From Bacteroidales bacterium (GTDB lineage Bacteria; Bacteroidota; Bacteroidia; Bacteroidales; UBA932): a stretch of DNA of 64,000 nucleotides. Of this stretch, positions 17,364-63,777 are shown piece by piece. A program made the translations under genes and the position numbers. Within the stretch, counting starts at the first letter, position 1, and every line of letters begins with the position of its first letter. Location: NCBI GenBank assembly GCA_017412645.1, contig JAFPWX010000017.1, positions 102,284 through 166,283 of the forward strand, written 5' to 3'. The notes beneath the pieces were generated by a model that was given only the letters and a program-made list of their open reading frames with translations, ran no database searches and was not told the origin of the DNA.

Positions 17364-18905
17364 TTAGAGCTTGCGAAGGAGGTTGGTGAGGTTGACTTTT
17401 GCGTCGATGCGGGCGCGGAGCTCGGCAACCGGCACGCGCTCCTGGGCCATCGTGTCACGGTCGCGCAGGGTCACGCAACCGTCTTCCAGAGAATCGTGGT
17501 CCACAGTGACGCAGAACGGAGTGCCGATGGCATCCTGCCTGCGGTAGCGGCGGCCGATGGTGTCTTTCTCTTCGTACTGGCAGGCGAAGTCGTAACGGAG
17601 GTCTTTCATGATCTCCTGGGCCATGCCGGTAAGACGCTCGTCGTTCTTGAGGAGCGGCAGCACTGCGACCTTCACGGGAGCCAGTGCGGCGGGGATCCTG
17701 AGCACTACGCGGCTCTCGCCGTTTTCGAGCTCTTCCTGGGTGTAGGCGTGCGAAAGCACGGTGAGGAACATACGGTCCACGCCGATACTCGTCTCAACGC
17801 AATAGGGAGTGTATTTCTCGCCCGTTTCGGGATCGAAGTACTGGAGATTGCGGCCGCTGAGCTTCTGGTGGTTGCCCAGGTCGAAATCGGTGCGGGAATG
17901 GATGCCTTCGAGCTCCTTGAATCCGAAGGGGAAGCGGAACTCGATGTCGGTGGCGGCGTTAGCGTAATGGGCCAGCTTCTCGTGATCGTGGAAGCGGTAG
18001 TTGTCGTCCCCGAAGCCGAGGGCCTTGTGCCACTTCATGCGCTCCTCTTTCCAGTAGGCGAACCACTCCATTTCGGTGCCGGGCTTGCAGAAGAATTCCA
18101 TCTCCATCTGCTCGAATTCGCGCATGCGGAAGATGAACTGACGGGCCACCACCTCGTTGCGGAAGGCCTTACCTATCTGGGAGATACCGAAGGGGATCTT
18201 CATACGGCCGGTCTTCTGTACGTTGATATAGTCCACGAAGATGCACTGGGCGGTTTCCGGACGGAGATAGACCTTGTCGGCTCCCTCGCCGGTGCTGCCG
18301 AACTGTGTGCTGAACATGAGGTTGAACTGGCGCACGTCGGTCCAGTTCTTGGTGCCGGAGATGGAGCAGACTATGCCGCAGTCGAGGATAATCTGCTTAT
18401 ATTCATCGAAATTGTTGGTCTCTTCCGCCTTCTTGTAACGCTCGTGGATCTCGTCGTAACGGGCCTTTTCACGCAGCACGTTGGGGTTGGTCTCGCGGAA
18501 CTTGGCCTCGTCGAAGGACTCGCCGAAGCGCTTGCGGCCTTTCTCGACCTCTTTCTCGATCTTCTCCTCAATCTTGCCAAGATAGTCCTCGATGAGGTTG
18601 TCGGCGCGATAGCGCTTCTTGCTGTCGCGGTTGTCGATGAGAGGGTCGTTGAAGGCCGCCACGTGGCCGCTCGCAACCCAGGTGTTGGGGTGCATGAACA
18701 CGGCCGCGTCGATACCGACGATGTTCTCGTGGAGACGATTCATGGCATCCCACCAGTATTTCTTTATGTTATTCTTGAGCTCGACGCCCATCTGGCCGTA
18801 GTCGTACACGGCGGCCAGGCCGTCATAGATTTCGCTCGAAGGGAAAATGAATCCGTACTCTTTGCAATGGGCTACGAGTACCTTGAAAAGTTCGTCCTGT
18901 GTCAT
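17364..18905 (-). CDS. glyS: Glycine--tRNA ligase (single-chain type)
   Basis: 513 residues from the ATG at 18903-18905; a longer frame upstream lacks homology and this start has a promoter element just before it. Class II motifs are visible: YDYGQMGVELKNNIKKYWW near the N-terminus, RPETAQCIF, FGISQIGKAFRNE (motif 2), CVETSIGVDRMFL (motif 3), and a C-terminal anticodon-binding domain (LAPVKVAVLPLLKNDE). This is the alpha2 type, not the alpha2beta2 type of E. coli, so the symbol glyS (glyQS in some schemes) refers to a single chain. It charges tRNA-Gly in the cytoplasm. Confidence 0.95.
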   Translation of the reverse strand: MTQDELFKVLVAHCKEYGFIFPSSEIYDGLAAVYDYGQMGVELKNNIKKYWWDAMNRLHENIVGIDAAVFMHPNTWVASGHVAAFNDPLIDNRDSKKRYRADNLIEDYLGKIEEKIEKEVEKGRKRFGESFDEAKFRETNPNVLREKARYDEIHERYKKAEETNNFDEYKQIILDCGIVCSISGTKNWTDVRQFNLMFSTQFGSTGEGADKVYLRPETAQCIFVDYINVQKTGRMKIPFGISQIGKAFRNEVVARQFIFRMREFEQMEMEFFCKPGTEMEWFAYWKEERMKWHKALGFGDDNYRFHDHEKLAHYANAATDIEFRFPFGFKELEGIHSRTDFDLGNHQKLSGRNLQYFDPETGEKYTPYCVETSIGVDRMFLTVLSHAYTQEELENGESRVVLRIPAALAPVKVAVLPLLKNDERLTGMAQEIMKDLRYDFACQYEEKDTIGRRYRRQDAIGTPFCVTVDHDSLEDGCVTLRDRDTMAQERVPVAELRARIDAKVNLTNLLRKL

Positions 18906-18909
18906 GTTA

Positions 18910-18917
18910 CAAAGATA
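18910..18917 (-). promoter_or_regulatory. -7 element 4 nt upstream of glyS ATG
   Basis: On the minus strand this reads TATCTTTG, a full match to TAnnTTTG, followed by 4 nt and the glyS ATG. It lies between the prohibitin stop and glyS. No TTG is seen at the usual -33 distance. If used, the mRNA would start at or inside the start codon region. Confidence 0.45.
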
Positions 18918-18922
18918 GTTTT

Positions 18923-19720
18923 TTACTTCGGAATGTCGATAAACGGAACGGCATTTCCGAGCATGTACTGCGGGAGTTTTCCATCCCACTTCTGAACCGC
19001 CTCATACTGAGTGAGTTTGGGGTTGGCGGTAAGGGCCGACGCCTTGATCTGCATTGCCTTTGCTTCGGCTTCGGCGGTGATGATCTTCTGGTTGGCCTCT
19101 TCCTGGATGCGGATGGTGTTGTTCTTGGCGGTGAGAGCCTTCTGCTCTGCCACCTGCTTGTCCACGATGCTCTGTTCGAAAGCGTCGTCGTACTCGATGT
19201 TCACCATCTGGAAGTGTACGTTGCGCACATAATCGCCGGGCAGCTGGGCGTCCAGTTCGCGCTCGACCGATTTACGCACCTCGTCGCGGTTACCCACAAT
19301 ATCAGCCGCATTATAGCCGCCGATTACATCCTTGAGCACGCCCTCAATCACCGGGGTAATGATCTTTGCGATGTAGTTGTTACCCACATTGCTGTAGAGC
19401 AGAGCCATGTTTTCCGGAACCGGGTCGAAGTTGAGCACGTAGCGCACATCGGCGGTCTGGATGTCCTTGGTGTAGGACGGGGCGTTCTCTTCGAGCTTGA
19501 CGGTCTGGATGCTCATTTTGTGGATCGTCTGCACAAAGGGGATCTTGATGTGCAGGCCGGCCTCGACTACTTCAGGCTTGATCTTTCCGAAAGTTGCGAT
19601 AACTCCCCTCTGGGTAGAGGAGACGCTGTAGAATCCGGAAAGGATGAAGATGACGACGGCGGCGATGATGAGAGTCGCGGCCACGGCCTTTTTCTGATTA
19701 GCGGGATTTGTGTGTTGCAT
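18923..19720 (-). CDS. Prohibitin/SPFH-domain membrane protein
   Basis: 265 residues from the ATG at 19718-19720; a TTG nine codons upstream is possible but lies deeper in folK. A short cytoplasmic start is followed by one membrane segment at about 13-32 (VAATLIIAAVVIFILSGFYS). The SPFH domain follows (STQRGVIATFGKI, GLHIKIPFVQ, YVLNFDPVPENMALLY). A coiled-coil Ala/Glu/Lys-rich helix ends the protein (EQKALTAKNNTIRIQEEANQ). Prohibitin-like proteins form large membrane rings that modulate proteases and membrane domains. The start overlaps the folK end by 23 bp. Confidence 0.9.
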   Translation of the reverse strand: MQHTNPANQKKAVAATLIIAAVVIFILSGFYSVSSTQRGVIATFGKIKPEVVEAGLHIKIPFVQTIHKMSIQTVKLEENAPSYTKDIQTADVRYVLNFDPVPENMALLYSNVGNNYIAKIITPVIEGVLKDVIGGYNAADIVGNRDEVRKSVERELDAQLPGDYVRNVHFQMVNIEYDDAFEQSIVDKQVAEQKALTAKNNTIRIQEEANQKIITAEAEAKAMQIKASALTANPKLTQYEAVQKWDGKLPQYMLGNAVPFIDIPK

Positions 19721-20180: not shown

Positions 20181-20185
20181 ATCGT

Positions 20186-20527: not shown

Positions 20528-20933
20528 ATTGCTGTGCCTCCCTTTTTATTGTTTCTACCATCGAGACAAGCCCGTTCGCCCTGGTGGGCGAGAGGTTTTC
20601 CCGAAGTCCGATTTTATCGAGGAAAGAAAAGTCGTCAGCCGCGATCTCTGCCGCCGTACGGCCATTGTAAACGCTTATCAACAAGGAGATTATACCCTTT
20701 GTGATGATGGCGTCGGAGTCTGCCCGGAAGGTGATGACGCCGGCATCGCTGCGGCAATCCAGCCAAACACGGGACTGGCAGCCTTTGATGAGGCGGTCGT
20801 CGGTTTTGAGTTCCTCCGGGAAGGGTTCGAGGTTCTTTCCGAGGTCGATGAGATATTCGTATTTATCCAGCCACTCTTCCATCATGGAGAAGTCCCCCAC
20901 GACTGCGGCTTTCGCTTCTTCCAAACTCGTCAT
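20520..20933 (-). CDS. sufE: SufE sulfur-acceptor protein
   Basis: 137 residues from the ATG at 20931-20933 (the frame is open further upstream, inside sufS, without homology). The active-site Cys lies in LIKGCQSRVWL; the C-terminal helix contains FSFLDKIGLRENLSPTRANG. SufE accepts persulfide sulfur from SufS and passes it to the SufBCD scaffold. Its start overlaps the sufS stop as ATGA, so the pair should be translated together. Confidence 0.94.
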   Translation of the reverse strand: MTSLEEAKAAVVGDFSMMEEWLDKYEYLIDLGKNLEPFPEELKTDDRLIKGCQSRVWLDCRSDAGVITFRADSDAIITKGIISLLISVYNGRTAAEIAADDFSFLDKIGLRENLSPTRANGLVSMVETIKREAQQYV

Positions 20934-22153
20934 TTCAACATTTTTATTGCCTTCTTCAGGCTTTTGATAAAGTATTCCGCCTCTTCCTGGGTATTGTACG
21001 GAGCGAATGACGCCCGCACCATGCCGGTAACTCCATAGCGGTCCATCAGAGGCTCCGCGCACATCTGCCCGGAACGTACGGCTATGCCCATTTTGTCAAG
21101 GATAAGCGCCAGATCTTCATGGTGGGCCCCTTCAACTGTGAAGGAGAATACTGGTATCTTCTCTTCTGGGGCCTCCGGCACGCCGAAAAGACGCAGTCCG
21201 GGAATATCCTGAAGAGCCTCTAGCATATAGCGTTTCACCCCCTCCAGTTCAGGATAATTGCGGAATTTATAAACCCACGCAATGGCATGACCGAAGGTTG
21301 GAACGCCGGCCAGATTCTGTGTTCCCGCCTCGAACTTGTGCGGCACCGAGGCGTAGGTGCTCTTTTCCCACTTTACCGTTCCTACCATCTCTCCTCCTCC
21401 CATGTATGGCGGAAGCGAATCGAGAAGCGCCTTTTTCCCCCAGAGAACACCCGTCCCCGGAGCAGCGTAGAGCTTATGCCCGGAGAAGGCATAGAAGTCC
21501 GCGCCCATCGCCTGAACGTCAGTCTTGCAATGAACCACGCCCTGCGCTCCGTCCACCACGAGAAGGACTCCTCGGGAGTGACAATAATCCGCAATCTGCC
21601 TTACGGGATTCACCAGACCAAGCACGTTGGATACCTGGGCGACGGCGCAGATCCGGGTGCGGTCGCTTATCAGACGAGGAAGCTCCTCGAGCCGGAGAGC
21701 GCCCCTTTCATCCACAGGCAACACCTTAATTTTCAGGTTTTTACGCTCTGCCAGGAATTGCCAGGGAAGGATATTGGAGTGGTGCTCTTCTTCTCCTATA
21801 AGAATCTCGTCGCCTACGTTCAGGAAGCCTTTTCGCTCGCCAAGACAGAATGCAAGCAGGTTTATCGCCTGCGTGGTTCCGCTGGTGAAGACTACCTCCT
21901 TCGGAGAATTTGCGTTTATGAAGTCCGCTACTTCTTCGCGGGCAGCCTCAAATTCCTCGGTAGCCTTGGCCGAGGTGAAATGAACGGCGCGGTGGAGGTT
22001 TGCGCTGTAGCGCGCAGACATCCAGTCCCACTTTTCTATCACGCTTCGAGGACGCAGCGAAGTGGCCGCATTGTCCAGATAGACAAGCGGTTTGCCGTAG
22101 ACTTTTGTGGAAAGCTGCGGGAATTGTTCGCGCAATTCTTCAATCGATGACAT
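20930..22153 (-). CDS. sufS: Cysteine desulfurase SufS
   Basis: 407 residues. The PLP-binding Lys lies in FYAFSGHKLYAAPGTGVLWG, the substrate-side Cys in RSGQMCAEPLMD, and the N-terminal substrate loop in YLDNAATSLRP. This is a group II desulfurase that removes sulfur from cysteine for Fe-S cluster assembly. It is first in the series sufS-sufE-sufT-folK-prohibitin. A TAnnTTTG element lies 7 nt before its ATG, in a 41 bp region shared with divergent ruvA. Confidence 0.95.
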   Translation of the reverse strand: MSSIEELREQFPQLSTKVYGKPLVYLDNAATSLRPRSVIEKWDWMSARYSANLHRAVHFTSAKATEEFEAAREEVADFINANSPKEVVFTSGTTQAINLLAFCLGERKGFLNVGDEILIGEEEHHSNILPWQFLAERKNLKIKVLPVDERGALRLEELPRLISDRTRICAVAQVSNVLGLVNPVRQIADYCHSRGVLLVVDGAQGVVHCKTDVQAMGADFYAFSGHKLYAAPGTGVLWGKKALLDSLPPYMGGGEMVGTVKWEKSTYASVPHKFEAGTQNLAGVPTFGHAIAWVYKFRNYPELEGVKRYMLEALQDIPGLRLFGVPEAPEEKIPVFSFTVEGAHHEDLALILDKMGIAVRSGQMCAEPLMDRYGVTGMVRASFAPYNTQEEAEYFIKSLKKAIKMLK

Positions 22154-22160: not shown

Positions 22161-22168
22161 CAAATTTA
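22161..22168 (-). promoter_or_regulatory. -7 element of sufS
   Basis: Minus strand TAAATTTG, 7 nt from the sufS ATG. It faces the ruvA -7 element 13 bp away, so the whole 41 bp divergent region holds both. No clear -33 TTG is visible. Confidence 0.45.
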
Positions 22169-22181
22169 ACATTTATTTCGC

Positions 22182-22189
22182 TATTTTTG
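22182..22189 (+). promoter_or_regulatory. -7 element of ruvA
   Basis: TATTTTTG fits TAnnTTTG, with 5 nt (CAGAT) between it and the ruvA ATG at 22195. No TTG is present at the expected -33 position. Confidence 0.45.
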
Positions 22190-22194: not shown

Positions 22195-22791
22195 ATGATC
22201 GACTATATAAAAGGAAAAATTTCGGAGCTTACTCCCACTCGCATCGTGCTCGAAAACGCCGGTATCGGCTATGCTATGGAAATCTCGCTGCAGACCTACA
22301 GCGCAATGGAAAATAAGGGTGAAGGAACCATCTATATTCAGAAACAGGTCAACCCCCGCGACGGAAGCGACGTGGACTATGGCTTTGCTACTCAGGACGA
22401 ACGCTCTCTGTTTCAATTAATTACGGGCGTTTCAGGGATGGGTGCAGCCTCTGCTCGAATGGTTCTCAGCTCCATGAGCTCGGAGGAGTTCCAGAAAGCA
22501 ATCCTGGCGGAGGACATCAACCGTATCAAGTCGGTCAAGGGCATAGGTCTCAAGACGGCCCAGCGCCTGATCCTTGAACTAAAGGATAAAATCACTAAGG
22601 GCGAAGGGGACTCTGCTCCCACCGAACTCTTCCGCACCGTGGACAATCAGGCCGTGGAAGAAGCAACGCAGGCTCTGGTCATGCTTGGCTTCAATAAGCC
22701 GGCGGTCGCAAAAGCCATTCAGAAAATTCTAGAGAAAAAACCCGACTCAAAGGTCGAAGAAATCATCAAGGCAGCATTACAGATGCTGTAG
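22195..22791 (+). CDS. ruvA: Holliday junction branch-migration protein RuvA
   Basis: 198 residues with the OB-fold domain first (MIDYIKGKISELTPTRIVLE), two helix-hairpin-helix motifs in the middle (LITGVSGMGAASARMVLSSM; INRIKSVKGIGLKTAQRLIL), and the C-terminal RuvB-contacting domain (EEATQALVMLGFNKPAVAKA). RuvA tetramers bind four-way junctions and recruit RuvB. ruvB is in the same window but 7 kb away on the other strand, not in a ruvAB operon. It converges on mnmG with a 3 bp gap. Confidence 0.96.
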   Translation: MIDYIKGKISELTPTRIVLENAGIGYAMEISLQTYSAMENKGEGTIYIQKQVNPRDGSDVDYGFATQDERSLFQLITGVSGMGAASARMVLSSMSSEEFQKAILAEDINRIKSVKGIGLKTAQRLILELKDKITKGEGDSAPTELFRTVDNQAVEEATQALVMLGFNKPAVAKAIQKILEKKPDSKVEEIIKAALQML

Positions 22792-24663: not shown

Positions 24664-25095
24664 CTATTTCTCTCCAGTAACGGATTCCCTGAGGGAAAGG
24701 TAGTAATCTTCTTTACTTCTCATCGTCTTCTGATCTTCCGGAGTATGGTCGTCATATCCGATAAGATGAAGAAGTCCGTGAACCATGACTCTTCGAAGTT
24801 CCACGGGGAACTCGGCCCCATAGAAGGAAGCATTATCGCGGACGGAGTCCACACTGATAAAAAGATCTCCCGAGAGAATATTTCCTTCGACATAATCGAA
24901 AGTGATTATGTCGGTGAAGTAATCGTGTCCCAGATACTTGATGTTGACATCCAGTATATAAGGATCGGAACAAAAAATTATGTTAACATCGCCTATTCTT
25001 TTAGCCTCCGCCTCGGCAACGAAACGAAGCCAGCGATTGTTCGCAAGTTTGCCCTTCAGATCGAAATCAATACCCTCTGAGAAATACTTAATCAT
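24664..25095 (-). CDS. ybeY: Endoribonuclease YbeY (rRNA maturation)
   Basis: 143 residues with the zinc-binding signature HGLLHLIGYDDHT near the C-terminus, in place of the family HGxLHLxGYDH, and the upstream GDLFISVDSVRDNA segment. YbeY processes the 3' end of 16S rRNA and takes part in ribosome quality control. It is immediately upstream of mnmG with no gap. A TAnnTTTG element ends 4 nt before its ATG. Confidence 0.93.
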   Translation of the reverse strand: MIKYFSEGIDFDLKGKLANNRWLRFVAEAEAKRIGDVNIIFCSDPYILDVNIKYLGHDYFTDIITFDYVEGNILSGDLFISVDSVRDNASFYGAEFPVELRRVMVHGLLHLIGYDDHTPEDQKTMRSKEDYYLSLRESVTGEK

Positions 25096-25099: not shown

Positions 25100-25107
25100 C
25101 AAAGTTA
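25100..25107 (-). promoter_or_regulatory. -7 element of ybeY
   Basis: Minus strand TAACTTTG, 4 nt from the ybeY ATG at 25093-25095. No clear TTG lies 19-21 bp upstream. It shares a 101 bp divergent region with the tonB promoter. Confidence 0.45.
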
Positions 25108-25125: not shown

Positions 25126-25156
25126 TTGGATTTCAAAAGAAAAATTAATACCTTTG
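25126..25156 (+). promoter_or_regulatory. tonB promoter (-33 TTG, -7 TACCTTTG)
   Basis: TTG at 25126-25128, a 20 bp spacer, then TACCTTTG at 25149-25156: a full match to the Bacteroidota housekeeping promoter. The ATG of tonB follows after 40 nt, so this is one of the few promoters in the window that predicts a normal leader. Confidence 0.65.
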
Positions 25157-25196: not shown

Positions 25197-25886
25197 ATGG
25201 AAATCAAAAAATCAGAGAAGGCAAGCCTGGAGAACAAGAGACTCTTCTTCATAGAAATCGGTCTCGTCATTTCTCTCGGGATAGTACTTGGAGTCTTCGA
25301 ATACAGCTCCAAGGAAAAGAAGCAGTCTGTAATGGAGGCCGTAAGTGAGGAAATCATCGAAGACGAAATGGTTCCCATCACTCAGGAAGCTCCCCCGCCG
25401 CCACCGGCAACCCCCGACATTCCCGTCCTGTCGGACCAGATAGATATCGTAGACGATGAAATCGAGGTAGACGACAACATCCTCAACCTCGAAGACGACG
25501 CCAATCTCGGCGTTGAAATCATGGACTACGTTGAAGAAGTGGAGGAAGAGGTGGTGGAAGAAGAGGCTATTCCTTTCCAGCTGGTGGAAACCAAGCCCAC
25601 CTTCATGGGAGGCGACGCCAACACCTTCCGCACCTGGGTCAATGAGCGCCTCGAATACCCCGAAATCGCTAAGGAAAACGGTATTCAGGGCCGCGTCACC
25701 CTCCAGTTCACTGTAGGTTCCGACGGCAAGGTTTCAAACGTAAAGGTTCTCCGTGGCGTGGATCCCACCCTGGATAAGGAAGCTGTGCGCGTCGTATCCA
25801 TGTCTCCCAAGTGGAGCCCCGGAAAACAAAGGGACCGTGCAGTAAAGGTTACCTACACCTTCCCTGTTATCTTCCAGCTTAGGTAA
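25197..25886 (+). CDS. TonB-family energy transducer
   Basis: 229 residues. A short cytoplasmic N-terminus is followed by one membrane segment at about 20-38 (FIEIGLVISLGIVLGVF). The periplasmic spacer begins with a short APPPPPATP stretch but is otherwise very acidic (VDDEIEVDDNILNLEDDAN; VEEVEEEVVEEE), unlike the Pro/Lys-rich spacer of classical TonB. The C-terminal TonB domain (about 140-229) contains YPEIAKENGIQGRVTLQFTV and the final VKVTYTFPVIFQ. It should couple ExbBD energy to TonB-dependent receptors such as the SusC proteins here. exbB and exbD are not in the window. Confidence 0.92.
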   Translation: MEIKKSEKASLENKRLFFIEIGLVISLGIVLGVFEYSSKEKKQSVMEAVSEEIIEDEMVPITQEAPPPPPATPDIPVLSDQIDIVDDEIEVDDNILNLEDDANLGVEIMDYVEEVEEEVVEEEAIPFQLVETKPTFMGGDANTFRTWVNERLEYPEIAKENGIQGRVTLQFTVGSDGKVSNVKVLRGVDPTLDKEAVRVVSMSPKWSPGKQRDRAVKVTYTFPVIFQLR

Positions 25887-29893: not shown

Positions 29894-30913
29894 TTAGAAT
29901 AGTGTATTGTCAGACGAAGGGGACTTGGCTATTCCCAGATGATCGTAAGCCTTATCCGTGGCGATACGTCCCCTCTGGGTGCGAAGAATATATCCTTCCT
30001 TTATGAGGAAAGGTTCGTAAACCTCCTCAAACGTGCCCTGATCCTCACCTATTGCCGTAGCAATGGTATTGGCTCCGACCGGGCCTCCCTTGAACTTATT
30101 GATGATAGTATCGAGAATGCGGTTGTCGATACTGTCGAGTCCGCGCACATCTATATGAAGCTTGTCCAACGCATACTTGGTAATCTTCAGGTCGATAACC
30201 CCGGATCCCATCACCTGAGCGAAATCCCGTACACGGCGCAGCAGGCTGTTGGCTATACGCGGCGTACCCCTGGAACGCAGGGCAATTTCGCGAGCGGCTT
30301 CATCCTCAATGGGAATATTCAGTATACCTGCGGAACGACGGACTATCGCCTCCAGATCGGCCGAATCATAATACTCGAGAGCACAGTCGATACCGAAGCG
30401 GGCGCGGAGCGGCGAGGTGAGAAGACCCTTGCGGGTGGTGGCACCTATCAGGGTAAACGGAGCCAGATTGATCCGCACCGACCTCGCACCGGGTCCCTTA
30501 TCTATCATGATATCAATCACATAGTCCTCCATAGCAGAATAGAGATATTCCTCTACTTCGGGGGAGAGACGATGGATTTCATCTATAAAGAGCACGTCGC
30601 CCTCTTCCAGGGAAGTGAGCAGACCTGCCAGATCCCCTGGCCTGTCCAGCACCGGACCGGAGGTGATTTTCATATTCACCCCCATTTCATTTGCGATGAT
30701 ATGTGCCAGAGTGGTCTTTCCAAGACCCGGAGGCCCGTGGAACAGGGTATGATCCAGAGACTCCCCGCGCATCTTGGCGGCCTTGATATAAATATTCAGG
30801 TTCTGGACAATCTCCCGCTGACCGGTGAAATCTTCCAACTCCTGCGGGCGGATAATTCCGTCCAATTCCTTATCTTTGCTGTCCGGAGCGTTGCGGGGAT
30901 CGAAATCTGCCAT
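29894..30913 (-). CDS. ruvB: Holliday junction ATP-dependent helicase RuvB
   Basis: 339 residues. Walker A is [19 protein letters not shown], Walker B is [19 protein letters not shown], sensor 1 is [20 protein letters not shown] (containing the arginine finger), and a winged-helix domain ends the protein ([18 protein letters not shown]). It drives branch migration with RuvA. The gene faces away from mfd across a 248 bp AT-rich region with DnaA-box-like repeats. A minus-strand TATATTTG (-7-like) lies 26 nt before its ATG. Confidence 0.96.
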
Positions 30914-31161
30914 CTTCAGAGGTCTGGAGTTACGGATTACAAATATAATTCTTTTTCTTTAAAAAGGATGATTTTTATATTGGTGTTGAAATGTTGAAAA
31001 CTGATGCAACTATTTCAGTATCAATAAAATATAAAGGTTGAAAGTTGTTGGAGAAATCGTTGATGAAAAGTTGATTACGGGCTCAATCCCGGGCTGTCCC
31101 CGTCGTGGCCTCCATTATCAACAGGGTTATACACAGCTTTTCAACCATTTAATACGGGCAA
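30914..31161. other. AT-rich divergent region with DnaA-box-like cluster (candidate oriC)
   Basis: This is the longest internal gap apart from the window end. Three near-DnaA boxes lie in tandem: TTATCAACA (31115-31123), TTATACACA (31127-31135, exact fit to TTATNCACA) and TTTTCAACC (31138-31146). Inverted relatives lie on the other side of the gap: TGTTGAAAT (30984-30992), TGTTGAAAA (30992-31000), GGTTGAAAG (31036-31044), CGTTGATGA (31058-31066) and AGTTGATTA (31069-31077). The ruvB-side part is AT-rich, as an unwinding element would be. ruvB and mfd diverge from it. A parS-like site is 8 kb away. Confidence 0.5.
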
Positions 31162-34347: not shown

Positions 34348-34360
34348 ATGCTTATTTTTG
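34329..34360 (+). promoter_or_regulatory. coaX promoter (TTTG, 20 bp, TATTTTTG)
   Basis: TTTG at 34329-34332 inside the last codons of mfd, a 20 bp spacer, then TATTTTTG at 34353-34360. The coaX ATG follows after 6 nt, so transcription from this promoter should begin at or next to the start codon. It is among the best full promoter matches in the window. Confidence 0.6.
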
Positions 34361-34366: not shown

Positions 34367-35092
34367 ATGGCTAATTTGGTCATCGAAATAGGCAACACCG
34401 CTCTCAAGGCGGCCTGGGCGGAGGGCAAAACCCTCGGCAAAACCTTCCGTTACCAGGGCGAAAAGACCCTCGAATTCATCCTTTCCATCACGGAAAAGGA
34501 AAAGCCCGAGGTGATGGCGGTCGTGTGCGGCCGTCCGTTCTCCGGGGCGGAAGAGGAAATCCTGCGGGGCGAGTGCCGCCATCTGATGCTGCTCGACAGC
34601 GCCCATCCGGACTATCTGCAACGTTACGGCATCCCCGAATACCTCAGCTACGACCGCGCCTGTTCCATCATGGCGGTGCGTCACCTCTTCAAGGGCAAAT
34701 CCTGCACGGTGTTCGATTTCGGCACCACCCTCACCATAGATCTGGTCGATGCCGACGGCCTCTACCGAGGTGGCAACATCTCCCCGGGCTGCCGCACCCG
34801 CTTCAAGAGCCTCAACCGCTACGCAAAGGCTCTGCCCATGGTCAACACCCCCGCCAGAGTCCCTCAGGAAGGCACCTCCCTGGAGAGCTCCATCGAGTCG
34901 GGAGTGATTTCGGGCATAATGTTTGAAATCGAGGGCTACGTGCGCCAGCTGCCCGGCAACGTGATCGTATTCACGGGCGGCGACGCCATATACTTTGCCA
35001 AGCGGATGAAGTACTCGCTCTTCGTTATGAGCAACCTGGTACTCGCCGGCCTGGCCATTATGACAGACGATTATGCCCAGAAGAACGTATAG
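34367..35092 (+). CDS. coaX: Type III pantothenate kinase
   Basis: 241 residues from the ATG at 34367 (a TTG three codons upstream lies inside the -7 element and is unlikely). Phosphate-binding and family motifs: LVIEIGNTALKAAW, TVFDFGTTLTIDLVDADG, YRGGNISPGCRTRFKSLNRY and VIVFTGGDAIYFAKRM. It phosphorylates pantothenate, the first step of coenzyme A synthesis, and is not feedback-inhibited by CoA in known members. Its end overlaps the next gene by 20 bp. Confidence 0.94.
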   Translation: MANLVIEIGNTALKAAWAEGKTLGKTFRYQGEKTLEFILSITEKEKPEVMAVVCGRPFSGAEEEILRGECRHLMLLDSAHPDYLQRYGIPEYLSYDRACSIMAVRHLFKGKSCTVFDFGTTLTIDLVDADGLYRGGNISPGCRTRFKSLNRYAKALPMVNTPARVPQEGTSLESSIESGVISGIMFEIEGYVRQLPGNVIVFTGGDAIYFAKRMKYSLFVMSNLVLAGLAIMTDDYAQKNV

Positions 35093-46508: not shown

Positions 46509-46540
46509 TTGCAAATTTAGCAAAATTATCCGTACCTTTG
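46509..46540 (+). promoter_or_regulatory. folA promoter (TTG, 21 bp, TACCTTTG)
   Basis: TTG at 46509-46511, a 21 bp spacer, TACCTTTG at 46533-46540, then 6 nt to the folA ATG. The -33 element overlaps the edge of the thyA -7 element (46512-46519), so polymerase binding at one promoter may exclude the other. Confidence 0.6.
46512..46519 (-). promoter_or_regulatory. -7 element of thyA
   Basis: Minus strand TAAATTTG, 4 nt from the thyA ATG at 46505-46507. It abuts the -33 TTG of folA on the other strand. No good -33 for thyA is visible. Confidence 0.45.
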
Positions 46541-46546: not shown

Positions 46547-47035
46547 ATGCAAAAATGTCTGATAGTGGCGATAGCCGACAATAACGCGATAGGGGTGAAA
46601 GGGGATCTGCCCTGGCATCTCGGCGAAGATCTGAAGTATTTCAAGCGTAAAACCAAAGGCCATCCGGTGATCATGGGCCGCACCACATATTTCTCGCTTC
46701 CAAAGCACCCGCTTCCGCAGCGCAAGAATATCGTGCTTAACCTTGGAGGAGACCCGATTCCGGAAGCGACTTGTGTGTATTCCTTCGAAGAGGCCTACAA
46801 GGCCGTGCGTCCGGCACGCAAGTGCTTCATCATGGGCGGAGCCTCGGTATACAAGGCCGCCTTGCCGGATATGGACACCCTCTACATCACCCACGTCCAT
46901 ACCGTCATTGAAGGGGCCGACGCCTTCTTCCCTGAAATAGACCCGAAGATCTGGCATCCCAGTTGGAAGAGCCGCATGCATCACGACGACGCCACGGGCT
47001 ACGACTTCCAGTTCGTAATCTACCGCAGGAAATAA
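46547..47035 (+). CDS. folA: Dihydrofolate reductase
   Basis: 162 residues from the ATG at 46547; the frame is open far upstream into thyA on the other strand, but homology begins here (CLIVAIADNNAIGVKGDLPW). Cofactor and substrate motifs: HPVIMGRTTYFSL, KCFIMGGASVYKAALP and DTLYITHVH. It regenerates tetrahydrofolate from the dihydrofolate made by ThyA. Its stop overlaps the start of the symporter gene as TAATG. Confidence 0.96.
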   Translation: MQKCLIVAIADNNAIGVKGDLPWHLGEDLKYFKRKTKGHPVIMGRTTYFSLPKHPLPQRKNIVLNLGGDPIPEATCVYSFEEAYKAVRPARKCFIMGGASVYKAALPDMDTLYITHVHTVIEGADAFFPEIDPKIWHPSWKSRMHHDDATGYDFQFVIYRRK

Positions 47036-53363: not shown

Positions 53364-54248
53364 ATTTATTTCTGGAACGTCGAGAACTTCTTTGCTCCGG
53401 GAGAGTTCCCCGGACACTCGTGGAGCAAGACCAGATTCTACACCAAGTGCAATGCCGTGGCCAAGACGCTCTTGCTTTCGGCCGACGAACTCGGCAGTCT
53501 GCCGGACATTGTCGGCTTTGCCGAAGTGGGCGACGCATCGGTGCTGAAGGCTCTGCTCGGTGCTACCCCTCTCCACAAACTCGATTATTCCTTCGTTCAC
53601 TACGATTCTCCCGACAGGCGCGGCATCGATTGCGCTCTGCTCTACCGTCGCAGCCGGTTCAGGCTGTTAAACTCAAAACCCTGCCATCTGTATGACAGCA
53701 TCGGAGCTGTTATGCGCACGCGGGATATCCTTCTGGCGGTGCTGGAAACAAAAGGAGGAGCCCGCCTCGACAGCGTTAGCGGGGCGGGCTTCGACGAACG
53801 CTCCGGCGGGCGCCCCGACACGCTGGCCGTGCTGGTGAACCACCATCCTTCGAAGGTGGGCTCCGCGAGTGACGAACGCCGCAACATCGCCATGTCGCGC
53901 CTGCACTTCCTCGCCGATTCCCTGCAGGCAGCCGGCATCTCCCGGATAATAGCCGTAGGAGACTTCAACGACGAGGTGGTTCCGGCCGCTGGAGTGGCGA
54001 TAGGCGGCCGGGAAGGGACAATCAAATTCCAGGGCAAATGGGAAAAGATCGACGGCTGCCCACTCCTCGAAGGCCTGCGGGCCGAAGAAAGAATCTTCGC
54101 CCCGCGCTGTCTCCTCGAAAGAGACAGTTACGGCGGGGAAAAACCCCGCCGTACCTTCTCCGGCCCCCGCTACCTAGGCGGGATCAGCGATCATCTGCCG
54201 GTTATTTACTTGATTTCCCTCGCTCCGTCGGAGACCACCACGTCGTAG
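53340..54248 (+). CDS. EEP (endonuclease/exonuclease/phosphatase) family protein
   Basis: 302 residues. Catalytic motifs of the family are in order: YFWNVENFF near the start, PDIVGFAEVGD (metal Glu), GIDCALLYRR, VLVNHHPSK, IIAVGDFNDEVVP and ISDHLPVIYL. No clear signal peptide is present, although the first residues are hydrophobic and no other start exists before an in-frame stop at 53319-53321. The start codon lies in a long hairpin. The last 43 bp overlap the converging galK end. Substrate (nucleic acid or other phosphoester) is unknown. Confidence 0.88.
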   Translation: MLKILAIIIYFWNVENFFAPGEFPGHSWSKTRFYTKCNAVAKTLLLSADELGSLPDIVGFAEVGDASVLKALLGATPLHKLDYSFVHYDSPDRRGIDCALLYRRSRFRLLNSKPCHLYDSIGAVMRTRDILLAVLETKGGARLDSVSGAGFDERSGGRPDTLAVLVNHHPSKVGSASDERRNIAMSRLHFLADSLQAAGISRIIAVGDFNDEVVPAAGVAIGGREGTIKFQGKWEKIDGCPLLEGLRAEERIFAPRCLLERDSYGGEKPRRTFSGPRYLGGISDHLPVIYLISLAPSETTTS

Positions 54249-55357
54249 ATCTTGGGTTCGTGACCGAACTTGGCTGCGAACTGCTTTTTGGCCTCAGCGA
54301 TGAAGGCGTCGTAGAGTTCGTCCTTCACCAGGTTGATGGTGCAGCCGCCGAAGCCGCCGCCCATTACGCGCGAGCCGGTGACGTCCATCTTGCGGGCAAG
54401 CTTATTCAGGAAGTCGAGCTCTTCGCAGGAAACCTCATACAGCCTTGAAAGCCCGAAGTGGGTCTGGTACATCATTTCGCCCACGGTCTCGTAGTCGTCG
54501 CGCTCAAGAGCGTCACACACATCGAGCACGCGCTGTACTTCGCCGATAACATATTCGGCGCGGAGGAAATCCTCCTCGGGAATCTGCTCACGCACCTCGT
54601 CGAGCCACACGCGCTTGGCATCCGAAAGGAACTCCACTTCAGGGTGGTTCTTGCGTATTGCGGCGGCGGCGTTCTCGCAGGAAGCGCGGCGCTTGTTGTA
54701 AGCGCTGGAAGCCAGCTCATGCTTCACGCAGGAGTCGATAAGAACCAGCTTGTATCCCTTGGGATTGAACGGGAAGTATTTGTATTCCAGAGTTTTGCAG
54801 TTGAGGCGAATGAGGCTGCCCTCCTTGCCGAAGCAGGAGGCGAACTGGTCCATTATGCCGCACTTTACACCGCAGTAGTTGTGCTCGGTACTCTGTCCGA
54901 TCTTGGCCAGCTCGAACTTGTCGATACCGTTCTGGAAGAGTTCGTTGAGAGCGAAAGCGAAGCAGCTCTCCAGGGCGGCTGAAGAAGAAAGGCCGGCACC
55001 CAGCGGAACATCTCCGGCAAATACGGCGTCGAAGCCCTTCACGGTGCCGCCGCGTTTGATGGTTTCGCGGCATACGCCGAACACGTAACGGGCCCACTGC
55101 TTTTCGGGCTTATCTTCCTCGCCCAGGCCGAAGAAAGCCTCTTCATTGTAGTCCAGGCTGTACACGCGTACGGTGTTCTTGCCGTTGGGCTTGATTTCCG
55201 CGATTATACCTTTGTCGATAGCTCCGGGGAACACATAACCGCCATTGTAGTCGGTGTGCTCGCCGATAAGGTTGATACGACCTGCGGATGCGAAGATTCT
55301 GCCGCCCTCTCCGTAGAGTTCGACAAACTTGGAATGGATTTTCTGTTGCATTGACAT
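54206..55357 (-). CDS. galK: Galactokinase
   Basis: 383 residues. GHMP motifs: GRINLIGEHTDYNGGYVFPG (galactose signature), VPLGAGLSSSAALESCFAFA (ATP-binding motif 2) and SRVMGGGFGGCTINLVK (motif 3). It phosphorylates galactose in the Leloir pathway together with galM at 48 kb; galT and galE are not in the window. It is the last gene of the long minus-strand series that begins with dapB, 11 bp after hydE. Confidence 0.96.
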   Translation of the reverse strand: MSMQQKIHSKFVELYGEGGRIFASAGRINLIGEHTDYNGGYVFPGAIDKGIIAEIKPNGKNTVRVYSLDYNEEAFFGLGEEDKPEKQWARYVFGVCRETIKRGGTVKGFDAVFAGDVPLGAGLSSSAALESCFAFALNELFQNGIDKFELAKIGQSTEHNYCGVKCGIMDQFASCFGKEGSLIRLNCKTLEYKYFPFNPKGYKLVLIDSCVKHELASSAYNKRRASCENAAAAIRKNHPEVEFLSDAKRVWLDEVREQIPEEDFLRAEYVIGEVQRVLDVCDALERDDYETVGEMMYQTHFGLSRLYEVSCEELDFLNKLARKMDVTGSRVMGGGFGGCTINLVKDELYDAFIAEAKKQFAAKFGHEPKIYDVVVSDGAREIK

Positions 55358-55368: not shown

Positions 55369-56493
55369 TTATTGTTTTGCGTTATCCTTCAAAGATAGCG
55401 ATTTTTTCGGGGAAAAATCTCCCAACTGCCCATAGCCGATAACGATCTTGCCCTTGCTGAGGCTTTCTCCCATCGAGCAGAAGGGGAACACGCAATCGCG
55501 GCAGATATGGTTTTCGCCTTTTCCGGCAGAAGGGCAGTCCTTTATCAGGGTTTTCCGGTCGTAAAGATTATACTTCACCATTTCTTCCGCGGGGGTGACG
55601 TTGGGCATAAACACGTTCGCTCCTGCGAGTATGCCCATCTCGCGTCCGCGAGGATCCAGCACTTCCAGCGCCGTGGCCGCCGCGATATTGATATCCGGCA
55701 TCAGCAGGCGAAGCAGGGCAATCATCTTCAGCCCCAGGGTAAAACGCTCCGCATCAGGCGGATACGAGACCCCGGACAGGGTGAGCGGAGTGCCGGGATG
55801 CGGATTATAGGGCCCCATCCCTATCATTGGCGCACCGAAACTCTTATAGAACAGGAGGTCGTCTGCGAGGTCCGCACTCGTCTGGAACGGCATTCCTATC
55901 ATCGCTCCGGTTCCGGCCCGATAGCCTATGGCCTTGAGGTCCTGCAGGCACTCCAGACGCGTGTCGAAAGAGTGTTGCGAATCGTCCGGATGGATCTTCC
56001 GGTAGAGATCCGGATTGCTGGATTCTATCCTCAATAGATAGCGGTGGGCACCGGCCTCAAACCATTCTTCGTATACCTCCCTGGACTGTTCGCCAAGCGA
56101 GAGCGTGATGCCGAGGGGAGGATCCCCCCCGGTATCGATGGCTTTGATGGCGCGCACCAGACGGGTGATTTTGCGGATGAATGCCGGATCTTTCCGTTCT
56201 CCGCCCTGAATGACCACGGAGCCGTAGCGTCTCTTCGCGGCGATGGTGGCGGCCTCAAGCACCTGCTCGTCGCTGAGTTCATAACGCGGACAGTCCATGT
56301 CGCGGCGGATGCCGCAGTAAAGACAATCCTTCGCGCAGATATTGGAGATTTCAATGAGACCGCGGAGATAGACGGTTGCGCCCACGGAAGCGACCTTCAC
56401 CCGATACGCCTCCTGAAGCAATTCCTTAGTGAACGCCGGATCTTTAGATTCCAGCACCGCAATGAGTCCTTCCCGGCTGAGATTAACCTCCAT
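55369..56493 (-). CDS. hydE: [FeFe]-hydrogenase maturation radical SAM protein HydE
   Basis: 374 residues. Radical-SAM cluster CX3CX2C at Cys53, Cys57 and Cys60 (ICAKDCLYCGIR). SAM-binding and barrel motifs follow (VVIQGGER, YLLRIESSNPDLYRKIHP, GTGAMIGMPFQT, IGMGPYNPHPGTPL). A second cysteine group near the C-terminus (CPSAGKGENHICRDCVFPFC) fits the accessory cluster of HydE. HydE helps build the dithiomethylamine-bearing H-cluster with HydF and HydG, neither of which is here. Its presence implies hydrogen metabolism in the organism. Confidence 0.9.
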   Translation of the reverse strand: MEVNLSREGLIAVLESKDPAFTKELLQEAYRVKVASVGATVYLRGLIEISNICAKDCLYCGIRRDMDCPRYELSDEQVLEAATIAAKRRYGSVVIQGGERKDPAFIRKITRLVRAIKAIDTGGDPPLGITLSLGEQSREVYEEWFEAGAHRYLLRIESSNPDLYRKIHPDDSQHSFDTRLECLQDLKAIGYRAGTGAMIGMPFQTSADLADDLLFYKSFGAPMIGMGPYNPHPGTPLTLSGVSYPPDAERFTLGLKMIALLRLLMPDINIAAATALEVLDPRGREMGILAGANVFMPNVTPAEEMVKYNLYDRKTLIKDCPSAGKGENHICRDCVFPFCSMGESLSKGKIVIGYGQLGDFSPKKSLSLKDNAKQ

Positions 56494-58514: not shown

Positions 58515-59822
58515 CTATTTTCTGGTTATCACGGCTCCGAGTGCGCGCAGGCGGCCGTCGATATCCTCGTAACCACGGTCAATCTGTTCGATGTTGTCGA
58601 TCTCACTGGTTCCCTTGGCGCTCATTGCAGCAAGCACCATTGCGATACCTGCACGGATATCGGGGCTGGTCATGCGGTTGGCGCGCAGCTGGAACTTGTG
58701 ATCGTGGCCAATCACTACAGCGCGGTGCGGGTCGCAGAGGATGATCTGGGCACCCATGTCGATCAATTTATCGGTGAAGAACAGGCGGCTCTCGAACATC
58801 TTCTGGTGAATGAGGACGCTACCCTTGCACTGGGTGGCGACCACCAGAAGCACGCTCAGGAGGTCCGGTGTGAGGCCGGGCCAGGGGGCGTCGGCGATGG
58901 TCATGATGGAGCCGTCGATGAAAGACTCGATCTCGTAGCTCTCCTGTTCCGGCACGAAGATGTCGTCGCCCCGCTGTTCGAGCTTGACGCCGATACGCTT
59001 GAATGCCTCCGGAATGATGCCGAGGTTCTCATACGACACGTCCTTGATGGTGAGCGAGCTCTTGGTGATTGCGGCCATGCCGATGAAAGAGCCCACCTCG
59101 ATCATATCCGGCAGGATGCGGTGGTTCGCGCCGTGGAGTTTCTTTACTCCGTGAATGGTAAGCAGATTGCTGCCTATGCCTTCGATGTTCGCGCCCATGG
59201 CGTTGAGAAGACGGCAGAGCTGCTGCACGTACGGTTCGCAGGCGGCATTGTAGATGGTGGTGTCGCCGTCGGCCAGACTGGCCGCCATGACGATGTTGGC
59301 GGTACCGGTAACGGAGGCTTCGTCCAGAAGCATATAGGTTCCGCGCAGACCCTTGGGTGCGGTGAGATGATAGGCGCGCACCTTGCTGTCGTATTCGTAC
59401 GTGGCCCCGAGGTTCACGAAGCCCTCGATGTGGGTGTCCACCCTGCGGCGGCCGATCTTGTCTCCACCCGGTTTGGGGAACCATGTCTCGCCGAAGCGGG
59501 CCAGGAGCGGGCCGGAAATCATCACCGATCCGCGGAGCGAGGCGCAGAGCTTCACGAATTCCGGGCTGCCGACATACTCGCTGTTGAGCGTGGCGGCCTG
59601 GAAAGTGTACTCGCCCTTTTCGTGACGGGTTACAGCCACCCCCATCTTCTCCAGTAGTCCGATGAGGTTCTTCACGTCCAGGATTTCCGGAACGTTGGAG
59701 ATGCGGACAGCCTTGTCCGTGAGGAGCACTGCGCTCAGGATCTGCAGCGCTTCGTTCTTTGCACCCTGCGGAGTAATGCTTCCGCTCAGCCGGTGCCCGC
59801 CTTCGATGATGAATGTCGACAT
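58515..59822 (-). CDS. murA: UDP-N-acetylglucosamine 1-carboxyvinyltransferase MurA (Asp-type active site)
   Basis: 435 residues from the ATG at 59820-59822. Motifs: GGHRLSGSITPQGAKNEALQ (substrate Lys/Asn), LRGSVMISGPLLARFG, and the active loop KPGGDKIGRRRVDTH. In E. coli the loop has the Cys that fosfomycin alkylates; here the aligned residue is Asp121. The rest is well conserved through NIEQIDRGYEDIDGRL. It makes the first committed precursor of peptidoglycan. A TAnnTTTG element lies 5 nt before the ATG although the upstream CBM9-like gene ends only 2 bp away. Confidence 0.96.
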   Translation of the reverse strand: MSTFIIEGGHRLSGSITPQGAKNEALQILSAVLLTDKAVRISNVPEILDVKNLIGLLEKMGVAVTRHEKGEYTFQAATLNSEYVGSPEFVKLCASLRGSVMISGPLLARFGETWFPKPGGDKIGRRRVDTHIEGFVNLGATYEYDSKVRAYHLTAPKGLRGTYMLLDEASVTGTANIVMAASLADGDTTIYNAACEPYVQQLCRLLNAMGANIEGIGSNLLTIHGVKKLHGANHRILPDMIEVGSFIGMAAITKSSLTIKDVSYENLGIIPEAFKRIGVKLEQRGDDIFVPEQESYEIESFIDGSIMTIADAPWPGLTPDLLSVLLVVATQCKGSVLIHQKMFESRLFFTDKLIDMGAQIILCDPHRAVVIGHDHKFQLRANRMTSPDIRAGIAMVLAAMSAKGTSEIDNIEQIDRGYEDIDGRLRALGAVITRK

Positions 59823-59824: not shown

Positions 59825-60496
59825 CTACAAAGATAGTAAAAACTCCAGCTCGGTGAAGAATTCGGGACGATGATAGTCCGGCTTCGCCGTGTCGATGGGG
59901 GCGAAGGTGACGAAGTGGGGAACCTTCAGGGCATCGCCGCACTTGTAGAAATTGCCGCGGGCGTGCAGGCCGGCGAAACTCCGCAGGCCGCTGCGCCACA
60001 GGGCCTCTACGGGGATGTCTGCCCGAAGGGCCCATGGGCCGGCGGCAGGCCTCTCCTCAAAGCCGACCCTGGAACCCTCCACGGAAGGCATGAAAACGGT
60101 CCCTGAGCCTGTCGAAGGGCCGTCAAGAGAAACCTCTCTCCGGACGCTTGCCAGCACCTCTGCCGGAGCGTCTTCAGGGTCGAACCTGCCCGTGCGCCAG
60201 GAACAGACCATGGTGCCGGCGGCGTTGAACTCGAAATTGTAGTAGTGCGGATCGTCTTGAACGGGCTGGAAGAAAAATTCCACGCAGGAATCTTTGTAAA
60301 CGTCGTGTCCGTCGCGTGTCTCCACGGCGCGCACCGTTTGTTCATCTACCCGGTACTCCAGGTGCAGCACATCTCCAGAGTGCCAAAGACGGAACTCTAC
60401 CAAAGGCTTATAAGGCCACCCGGCCTCCCAGTTGAGGAAATCCAGCCGGTGCCATTCTCCCGGCTGCCCAAAAGGAACTTTCAAAGAAATATCCAT
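59825..60496 (-). CDS. CBM9-like (carbohydrate-binding family 9-like) protein
   Basis: 223 residues without a signal peptide. It follows the CBM9-like pattern: FRLWHSGDVLHLEYRVDEQT, a central VYKDSCVEFFFQPVQDDPHY with NFEFNAAGTMV, and a C-terminal FAGLHARGNFYKCGD with a final PEFFTELEFLL. Bacteroidota carry many such single-domain proteins of unknown role; some are parts of glycan enzymes. Residues about 127-133 (GPSTGSG) come from a dispersed repeat (60101-60119) inserted in frame. It is 2 bp from dapD and 2 bp from murA. Confidence 0.72.
   Translation of the reverse strand: MDISLKVPFGQPGEWHRLDFLNWEAGWPYKPLVEFRLWHSGDVLHLEYRVDEQTVRAVETRDGHDVYKDSCVEFFFQPVQDDPHYYNFEFNAAGTMVCSWRTGRFDPEDAPAEVLASVRREVSLDGPSTGSGTVFMPSVEGSRVGFEERPAAGPWALRADIPVEALWRSGLRSFAGLHARGNFYKCGDALKVPHFVTFAPIDTAKPDYHRPEFFTELEFLLSL
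59828..59835 (-). promoter_or_regulatory. -7 element of murA
   Basis: Minus strand TATCTTTG, 5 nt from the murA ATG, inside the 3' end of the CBM9-like gene. No exact TTG at -33 (GAA/TTC there instead). Confidence 0.4.
60101..60119. repeat. Copy of the dispersed CCTGAGCCTGTCGAAGG repeat
   Basis: CCCTGAGCCTGTCGAAGGG matches a short repeat known to be scattered through many unrelated bacterial genomes, usually translated as GPSTGSG or RQAQGPS depending on strand and frame. Here it lies in frame in the CBM9-like gene as a probable loop insertion. No second copy was noticed in this window. Confidence 0.6.
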
Positions 60497-60498
60497 GA

Positions 60499-62135: not shown

Positions 62136-62151
62136 ATGATATTAGCTATTA

Positions 62152-62616: not shown

Positions 62617-62630
62617 ACTGTAATAATCCT

Positions 62631-63080
62631 TTATTCCGCTCTTTGTGTTACTGAAACAGAACCAAAGACATCCATACACTCCATGCCAATACTAATTCTT
62701 CTGGAAGTGCCGGTATTGTTCTCATCAACAATAACTACTAAATACTTAGTAAGCAAATTCTTATTGCTTCGAGGAACATAGGCGCGGAACCAACTGCCGG
62801 ACAGCATATCAAAGTCCTTAGATAATGTAATGTCGTCTTTACCATATTCCACGCGTGCCACTTCCGTCCAGACGTTATCAACATAGGAATACTCGTGCGC
62901 ATCGCAAATCCACCAACCTCCATAATTCGTTACACTCGCAACAGCACAACCGCCTTTTGCGGCGAAAAAAATCTCCCTATTTTCAATCTTCATAGGCTCC
63001 CAATCACCTTCTGATGATTTACAGCCGCAAAAAAGGCAAACGGTTAATAGGAGGACGGATAATGAACGAACTCTGTTCAT
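62631..63080 (-). CDS. Small BACON-like lipoprotein B (inserted in dap operon)
   Basis: 149 residues with a lipoprotein signal (CLFCGC; Cys18 or Cys20). It is a paralogue of the gene downstream: MKIENREIFFAAKGGCAVAS, WWICDAHEYSYVDNVWTEVA, DMLSGSWFRAYVPRSN and SVSVTQRAE line up with its partner. The start overlaps the dapB stop as ATGA, so translation is coupled to dapB. AT-rich compared with dapB and dapA. No catalytic motif. Confidence 0.65.
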   Translation of the reverse strand: MNRVRSLSVLLLTVCLFCGCKSSEGDWEPMKIENREIFFAAKGGCAVASVTNYGGWWICDAHEYSYVDNVWTEVARVEYGKDDITLSKDFDMLSGSWFRAYVPRSNKNLLTKYLVVIVDENNTGTSRRISIGMECMDVFGSVSVTQRAE

Positions 63081-63739
63081 ATGATGAGATCTTTGAATTC
63101 GTGAACTCCGGTCAGGCCTTCGGTCATGAGGGCGGCCACCACGGCGCCTTCGGCCAGGCCTTCGCGGGAGAAGGCCTCGTGGGTGAGGGACAGACGGTCG
63201 CAGCTGCCGGTGAGTTCCACGGTGTGGATGCCGGGGACCTCCCCTTCGCGGAAAGATTCGATGTCGGGCACCACGCCGAGCCCCTTCTCCACTATGTCTC
63301 CCAGAATCTTTGCCGTGCCGCTCGGTTTATCGAGCTTATGGATATGATGCGTCTCGCTGATATGGGCCTTGTAGCCCTTGTCTTTCAGCACCGCCGACAC
63401 CTTTTCCACCGCGGCGAAAAGGGCGATCACGCCGATTGAGAAATTGGCCGACCAGATGAGGGTGCAGCCCTGGCGGGCGAACTCAGCGAGCACTTCGTCC
63501 TTGATGTCGTACCAGCCGGTAGTGCCCACCACGGCGGCCTTGAAATGCTCCGCGATAAAACGGTAGTTGGCCCGGAACGCTTCCGGGAAGGTAAAATCTA
63601 TGCACACCGCTTCGCGGGCGAGGGCCGGGTCTACCGAGCAGATGTCTTCGCTGCAAAGCGCCGGTTCGATGCCCCTTGCGCGGAGGCGATCCTCAACCAT
63701 ATGACCCATGCGGCCGTATCCTGAAATGACTACTTTCAT
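63077..63739 (-). CDS. dapB: 4-hydroxy-tetrahydrodipicolinate reductase
   Basis: 220 residues. NAD(P)-binding VVISGYGRMGHMVEDRL; family motifs VGTTGWYDIKDEV, WSANFSIGVIALFAAVEK and the catalytic HHIHKLDKPSGTAKILGDI. It is somewhat shorter than E. coli DapB (273). It reduces the DapA product in lysine/diaminopimelate synthesis. It is the first gene of the long minus-strand series and has a full promoter 6 nt before its ATG. Confidence 0.95.
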   Translation of the reverse strand: MKVVISGYGRMGHMVEDRLRARGIEPALCSEDICSVDPALAREAVCIDFTFPEAFRANYRFIAEHFKAAVVGTTGWYDIKDEVLAEFARQGCTLIWSANFSIGVIALFAAVEKVSAVLKDKGYKAHISETHHIHKLDKPSGTAKILGDIVEKGLGVVPDIESFREGEVPGIHTVELTGSCDRLSLTHEAFSREGLAEGAVVAALMTEGLTGVHEFKDLII

Positions 63740-63745
63740 AACTTA

Positions 63746-63777
63746 CAAAGTTAGTAAAAACTTGGCTTACCCGCAAA
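63746..63777 (-). promoter_or_regulatory. dapB promoter (TTTG, 20 bp, TAACTTTG)
   Basis: Read on the minus strand: TTTG at 63777-63774, a 20 bp spacer counted from TTG, then TAACTTTG at 63753-63746, then 6 nt to the dapB ATG. A full consensus match. The -33 part lies in the left arm of the inverted repeat CCGCAAAG/CTTTGCGG (63771-63778 and 63798-63805). Confidence 0.65.

Follow-up and report, generated by a model that had tools for sequence, protein, structure and literature searches.

The promoter known as sigma-ABfr, described in Bacteroides fragilis and Flavobacterium johnsoniae, is built from a -7 element with the consensus TAnnTTTG and a -33 element, TTTG (PMC6847099). Here, we examine where TAnnTTTG lies relative to start codons in a 64,000 nucleotide (nt) stretch of DNA from an uncultured member of the Bacteroidales (hereafter the window), which forms the end of contig C12 (positions 102284–166283) of a 1.80-Mb draft genome that is 96 % complete. 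Nine genes of the window have a complete TAnnTTTG 4–7 nt before the ATG, and the same placement recurs across the genome. It is probable that this genome uses one -7 element at two spacings, and that the closer spacing gives mRNAs that are leaderless or nearly so.

The elements found here share with the sigma-ABfr promoter the -7 consensus (PMC6847099), the near absence of G from both free positions and an AT-rich tract upstream, but they often abut the start codon, whereas most leaders published for three Bacteroidota exceed 10 nt. Each of the three has a minority of transcripts with a short leader or none: about 3.7 % of 5' untranslated regions are shorter than 10 nt in Bacteroides thetaiotaomicron (PMC7366714), 5.5 % of the transcripts are leaderless in Flavobacterium psychrophilum (PMC9723704), and 13 % have leaders of 10 nt or less in F. 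johnsoniae (PMC6847099). Bacteroidota lack Shine–Dalgarno sites, and the figures for these species (3.7–13 % short leaders) were read as showing that leaderless mRNAs are not the reason for it. Leaderless genes of the Actinobacteria and Deinococcus-Thermus also have a promoter element so close to the start that a ribosome binding site would not fit (PMC3160421), but the element there is a Pribnow-type box and here it is of the Bacteroidota type. The authors of that survey note that only Pribnow-like promoters were identified in it, and leaderless genes were recorded in 1 of 37 Bacteroidetes/Chlorobi genomes, at 2.4 %. That leaderless mRNAs may be numerous in Bacteroidetes has been proposed in print. 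One paper states that a high leaderless fraction had been reported for Bacteroidetes and for other phyla, and links AT-rich biases at -20 to -10 to it (PMC5397173); another raises leaderless mRNAs when discussing Cyanobacteria and Bacteroidetes genes that lack a ribosome binding site (PMC4535381). Among the matches listed from the open-licence literature, none described a lineage of Bacteroidota in which leaderless promoters of the TAnnTTTG type make up a large share, though such a report may exist elsewhere.

Close boxes in the window

An initial annotation of the window, made from the sequence alone, had listed nine boxes directly before start codons, and all are present with the letters and gaps given there (the gap being the number of nt between box and start codon). 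On the minus strand, TATCTTTG (18910–18917) lies 4 nt before the ATG of glyS (17364–18905), TAAATTTG (22161–22168) 7 nt before sufS (20930–22153), TAACTTTG (25100–25107) 4 nt before ybeY (24664–25095), TAAATTTG again (46512–46519) 4 nt before thyA (45713–46507), TATCTTTG again (59828–59835) 5 nt before murA (58515–59822), and TAACTTTG again (63746–63753) 6 nt before dapB (63077–63739). On the plus strand, TATTTTTG lies 5 nt before ruvA (box 22182–22189, gene 22195–22791) and 6 nt before coaX (box 34353–34360, gene 34367–35092), and TACCTTTG (46533–46540) 6 nt before folA (46547–47035). A TTG, also noted in that annotation, is found 20 nt upstream of the coaX and dapB boxes and 21 nt upstream of the folA box. 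The NCBIfam names agree with all nine genes, and seven pass at least one listed cut-off; dapB (109 bits against 122) and folA (best 112.5 against 168) pass none, and their names rest on E-values of 3e-31 and 2e-32, respectively.

The window as a whole does not contain an excess of the motif: 22 matches compare with 16.6 expected, and 13 of 100 shuffles reach 22. However, for seven of the 22, one of the 50 called starts follows at 4–8 nt (binomial P ~2e-14). The two of the nine boxes outside this count are those of ybeY, which has NCBIfam support, and folA, as both genes were missed by the gene caller, which relied on codon usage, gave ATG a bonus and did not use the motif. Two SusC/SusD gene pairs in the window have no box before their starts, in line with the initial annotation. 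Its further statement that operon-internal genes lack the pattern holds for most, but glyS, coaX and murA lie 20 nt or less after an open reading frame on the same strand, and a gene with TRCF (mfd-like) domains ends 5 bp before the coaX box.

A peak of boxes at 4–8 nt across the genome

The initial annotation had proposed a genome-wide count of TAnnTTTG by distance from starts against shuffled controls. When the count was run on 758.8 kb (42 %) of the host genome, window included, in which 585 genes were called, a sharp peak was found at 4–8 nt. Boxes at this distance before a called start (close boxes) were present at 66 of the 585 starts, against a mean of 1.03 and a maximum of 4 in 100 rounds of dinucleotide-preserving shuffling of 578 upstream regions (seven near edges were dropped). 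At gaps of 3, 4, 5, 6, 7, 8 and 9 nt there were 3, 10, 14, 22, 11, 9 and 2 boxes, respectively. A second population lies farther out, with 45 boxes at gaps 18–37, and the interval between is depleted: gaps 9–17 hold eight boxes, where 20 would be expected at the density of gaps 18–37 (Poisson P 0.0018).

With 66 occurrences, TAnnTTTG was at the top of all 4096 patterns of the form XXnnXXXX at gaps 4–8, the runners-up (21 and 19) being the same element shifted by one base, and the remaining 29 letter orders of the motif were found at no more than 19 starts each. In the whole genome, where the reversed motif served as the control pattern, TAnnTTTG-N4-8-ATG occurs 206 times and its control 28 times. 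A matrix trained on the distant boxes recovered 68–83 close sites, depending on the threshold. Boxes with one mismatch, 18 variants summed, gave just 23 at gaps 4–8 compared to 14.7 per 5 nt at gaps 12–61, and shares of promoters (below) were therefore computed on strict boxes only.

Close boxes as probable ordinary -7 elements

Logos built from the 66 close boxes and from 96 distant boxes (gaps 12–100) agree. The frequency of G at the two free positions is 0.00 and 0.00 in the close set and 0.00 and 0.02 in the distant set, and both logos have T at -4 and A or T at -8 to -5, counted from the T of TA, and a pyrimidine followed by a purine after the box. The -7 consensus of F. johnsoniae has been refined to TAHHTTTG (PMC6847099), and the close-box logo, with no G at its free positions, fits this refinement.

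The distribution of close boxes among the 573 genes with a classifiable neighbour also looks like that of a promoter. They precede 41 of the 158 genes with a divergent neighbour, seven of 73 with a same-strand neighbour at least 100 nt away, six of 58 with one at 30–100 nt and only 11 of 284 with one at less than 30 nt (divergent versus same-strand <30 nt, Fisher 1.6e-11). Because the logo is common to close and distant boxes, and divergent starts are marked while operon-type starts rarely are, the close boxes look like the ordinary Bacteroidota -7 element placed for leaders of 0–4 nt. TAnnTTTG would then serve as the -7 element in promoters of the primary, sigma-ABfr type, lying in most cases 18 nt or more upstream and giving an ordinary leader, or else 4–8 nt upstream.

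Predicted leaders and start codon context

Predictions from RNA-seq for F. johnsoniae place the transcription start 4 or 5 nt after the -7 element in 241 of 434 candidates (PMC6847099), and the box of F. psychrophilum spans -12 to -5 (PMC9723704). From these distances, gaps of 4–8 nt predict leaders of about 0–4 nt, which agrees with the proposal in the initial annotation that the mRNAs begin at or next to the ATG. A close-box mRNA would begin at the A of the AUG or at most about 4 nt upstream of it, and would have to be translated leaderless, probably by a ribosome that recognizes the 5'-terminal AUG. The transcription start site, the recognition of the 5' AUG and the lack of a dominant second promoter upstream are inferred.

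The base directly before the start codon was compared between 66 close-box, 87 leadered and 379 other starts; the remainder of the 585 genes, 44 with GTG or TTG starts and nine ATG genes near edges or with gaps of 3 or 9, did not enter this comparison. Translation in F. johnsoniae benefits from adenines at -3 and -6 (PMC6847099). An A at -3 is rarer at close-box genes than at leadered ones (12/66 versus 43/84, p 3.5e-5), and this holds at gaps 6–8 alone (8/42, p 5e-4). A T directly precedes the ATG at 49 of 66 close-box starts, 41 of 87 leadered starts and 153 of 379 others, and the pyrimidine–purine step so formed suits a transcription start at the A. All 66 close-box genes start with ATG, whereas GTG or TTG is used by 44 of the 519 other genes (p 0.006). 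Lack of ribosomal protein bS21 was ruled out, as one bS21 is present.

Several observations weigh against leaderless initiation from these boxes, or weaken the support for it. The ATG-only result loses force because the gene caller favours ATG, and in the whole genome the pattern with GTG or TTG as the start codon also shows a small excess (118 versus 86 for the reversed pattern). The commonest gap is 6 nt (22/66) and gaps of 6–8 make up 42 of the 66; with a fixed spacing of 4 nt these correspond to a leader of 2–4 nt, so that many of the mRNAs would carry 1–4 extra nt unless the transcription start slides to the A of the ATG. A TTG at -33, with spacers of 19–22 nt, was found at 13 of 66 close sites, fewer than the 29 of 96 distant ones; the -33 element is weak in F. 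johnsoniae as well (PMC6847099). The apparent loss of A at -6 (10/66 close versus 40/84 leadered) was withdrawn as support; at gaps 4–6 the box or the next base occupies this position, and at gaps 7–8, where it is free, there is no difference (9/20, p 1.0). Nor was there a significant difference between close-box and leadered genes in A at -12 or -13, and the excess of pyrimidines at -1 (56/66 versus 62/87) is borderline (p 0.054).

Alternative explanations

That the peak reflects chance or base composition would accord with the unremarkable overall number of motifs in the window, but with 66 close boxes where shuffling gives 1.03, and at most 19 for any of the 29 other letter orders, this possibility is negligible. 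Another question is whether the box near the ATG acts in the RNA, as an AU-rich or UUUG signal recognized by the ribosome, with the mRNA starting farther upstream. Such a signal should mark operon-internal starts too, yet starts closely following a same-strand gene carry it far less often than divergent starts (11/284 versus 41/158), and this avoidance of operon-type starts makes a translation signal unlikely. Close and distant boxes also have features in common 4–8 nt upstream of the box, and close boxes occur in head-to-head pairs (below). Taken together, we consider a role in the RNA very unlikely.

The boxes may instead be real promoters with the true start codons lying farther downstream, so that leaders are of normal length. 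The starts are indeed predicted ones, from a caller that scores codons and favours ATG. However, it is ATG itself that is enriched 4–8 nt after the box (206 versus 28), the NCBIfam profile matches of thyA, ruvA and murA begin at residue 1, and in an alignment of ruvA from 30 genomes (described below) the start is ATG in 30 of 30, whether the box lies at 4–6 nt or at 17 nt or more; we regard misplaced starts as highly improbable. Somewhat more room must be left for the view that the close promoters are real but that stronger promoters upstream make most of the mRNA leadered, the leaderless form being minor. Single genes may have a second promoter, a second thyA box (46521–46528) lies 13 nt before the same ATG, and three of the nine genes lie shortly after an open reading frame on the same strand. 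On the other hand, the start codons of sufS and ruvA are only 41 bp apart and those of thyA and folA 39 bp, which leaves little room for an additional promoter outside the neighbouring gene, and as a general account a dominant upstream promoter seems unlikely. Promoters placed for leaderless or near-leaderless mRNAs are thus the explanation that we retain.

Head-to-head pairs of boxes

Two pairs of the boxes in the window face away from each other. The sufS and ruvA boxes (22161–22189) and the thyA and folA boxes (46512–46540) are each 13 bp apart, with a start codon abutting on either side. In the three nearest relatives (L158–L160), a CAAAnnTA box is also found 12–13 bp upstream of the ruvA box. 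The arrangement CAAAnnTA-N11-14-TAnnTTTG occurs 39 times in the host genome and its reversed pattern not at all. In the 758.8-kb sample, spacings of 11 (2), 12 (5), 13 (8) and 14 bp (1) were seen, with none at 6–10 or 15–19 bp; a called start lies at 4–8 nt on both sides in five of these 16 pairs and on one side in five, thyA/folA being scored as one-sided because folA was not called. A further head-to-head group of 12 pairs has spacings of 1–5 bp, roughly one helical turn below the 11–14 bp group.

Core elements set head to head at a fixed spacing are thus present, and transcription may run in both directions. Bidirectional prokaryotic promoters likewise have pseudo-symmetrical promoter DNA facing divergent genes (PMC12825309), but the pairs described here consist of two complete -7 boxes placed back to back, 11–14 bp apart. 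At least one pair was found in 148 of 149 genomes of the family, though in genera g159 and g160 and in genome G302 the counts are hardly or modestly above control. Pairing as the cause of the leaderless spacing was considered and rejected: G305, of the same family, has 21 pairs (one in the control) yet no clear close peak (10 boxes at gaps 4–8, six of them at gap 4). Hence, head-to-head pairs are a separate trait that is combined with leaderless spacing here. In a distant Bacteroidota family (f33), genome G109 has 31 head-to-head pairs against three in the control.

Share of close promoters

After subtraction of background, close boxes make up 42 % (bootstrap 34–50 %) of the strict-box promoters assigned to genes, among them those of the nine core genes of the window. 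By the same measure the share is 10 % in G305 and 25 % in G033, which belongs to the same class and has only five close boxes. This sets the host genome apart from B. thetaiotaomicron, F. psychrophilum and F. johnsoniae, although the comparison is a rough one because the published shares are of transcripts under other cut-offs and ours is an inferred share of promoters. The suggestion in the initial annotation that leaderless initiation is a regular mode in this lineage is therefore supported for this genome, but it would not be the sole mode, as about 58 % of strict-box promoters are at leadered distances. A lineage in which some 40 % of strict-box promoters imply leaderless mRNA would mean that the share varies strongly within one family.

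Close boxes in relatives and orthologues

Genomes were compared by the number of boxes at gaps 4–8 relative to gaps 20–24 before any ATG; the ratio to the reversed pattern alone was dropped as a measure, because it apparently increases with GC content and is also affected by near-start boxes at any leader length. The host genome ranks first, with a ratio of 1.96, among the 149 sampled genomes of its family (itself included), for which the median is 0.81 and the ratio reaches at least 1 in 23. Genus g161 is second (median 1.16 over 11 genomes). The ten other genomes of the host's own genus in the sample are far lower (genus median 0.79, minimum 0.65), and hence the trait changes quickly. In a sample of 296 genomes from the phylum, judged by eye, close boxes outnumber far ones in nine of nine rows for family f25, which lies outside the class of the window (for example 145 versus 52 in G101 and 100 versus 42 in G136), though its members G059, G086 and G232 have only a small excess over the reversed pattern. 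Within the class, G115 has 165 close and 83 far boxes in the same sample. An order-wide sample of 247 genomes, also judged by eye, included no other genome with an equally high ratio to the reversed pattern.

Individual orthologues are found with either spacing. For ruvA, 61 genomes were searched and 52 gave a match; in the best 30 of these, all of them genus members and the host genome included, the nearest box is at 4–6 nt in 11 cases and at 17 nt or more in 17. No nearest box lies at an intermediate distance, and two of the genomes lack a box within 60 nt. For thyA, where the comparison covered 24 Bacteroidales or Bacteroidia loci, the first of 80 listed, the box is at 4–6 nt in six, at 13 nt in one and at 23–24 nt in two, and most of the loci are uninformative either way because 15 have no box within 60 nt. 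The ruvA genes thus provide paired orthologues for a direct comparison of the two modes. In uncultured bacteria of this kind, TAnnTTTG at 4–8 nt would also be a strong signal for calling start codons.

A broader proposition, for which we judge the case evenly balanced, is that some Bacteroidota lineages have two initiation modes separated by a disfavoured leader length, the box either abutting the start or lying about 17 nt or more upstream, that orthologues flip between them, and that two leaderless genes can be driven by a compact head-to-head promoter within about 40 bp; in this lineage, leaderless initiation would be a main mode for the first genes of transcription units, core genes included.

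Other features of the window

Boxes at leadered distances were also found in the window, on the minus strand 18 nt before the YchF GTPase gene (ychF; box 41639–41646, gene 40520–41620), 26 nt before ruvB (box 30940–30947, gene 29894–30913) and 32 nt before a galactokinase-type GHMP kinase gene (box 55390–55397, gene 54206–55357), and on the plus strand 40 nt before a TonB-like gene with a TonB C-terminal domain (box 25149–25156, gene 25197–25886). Rfam and tRNA scans of the window gave no matches. The contig ends where the window ends, in the region upstream of dapB (63746–64000). The upstream gene of murA (59825–60496), which encodes a CBM9 domain, overlaps the murA box with its final codons, and the stop codon of that gene lies between the box and the murA ATG (59825–59835). 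Among the named records returned, the closest to thyA were from uncultured Bacteroidales and Bacteroidia, several labelled as rumen or related samples, with 89 % identity to isolate RUI352 and 80 % to Candidatus Cryptobacteroides faecavium.

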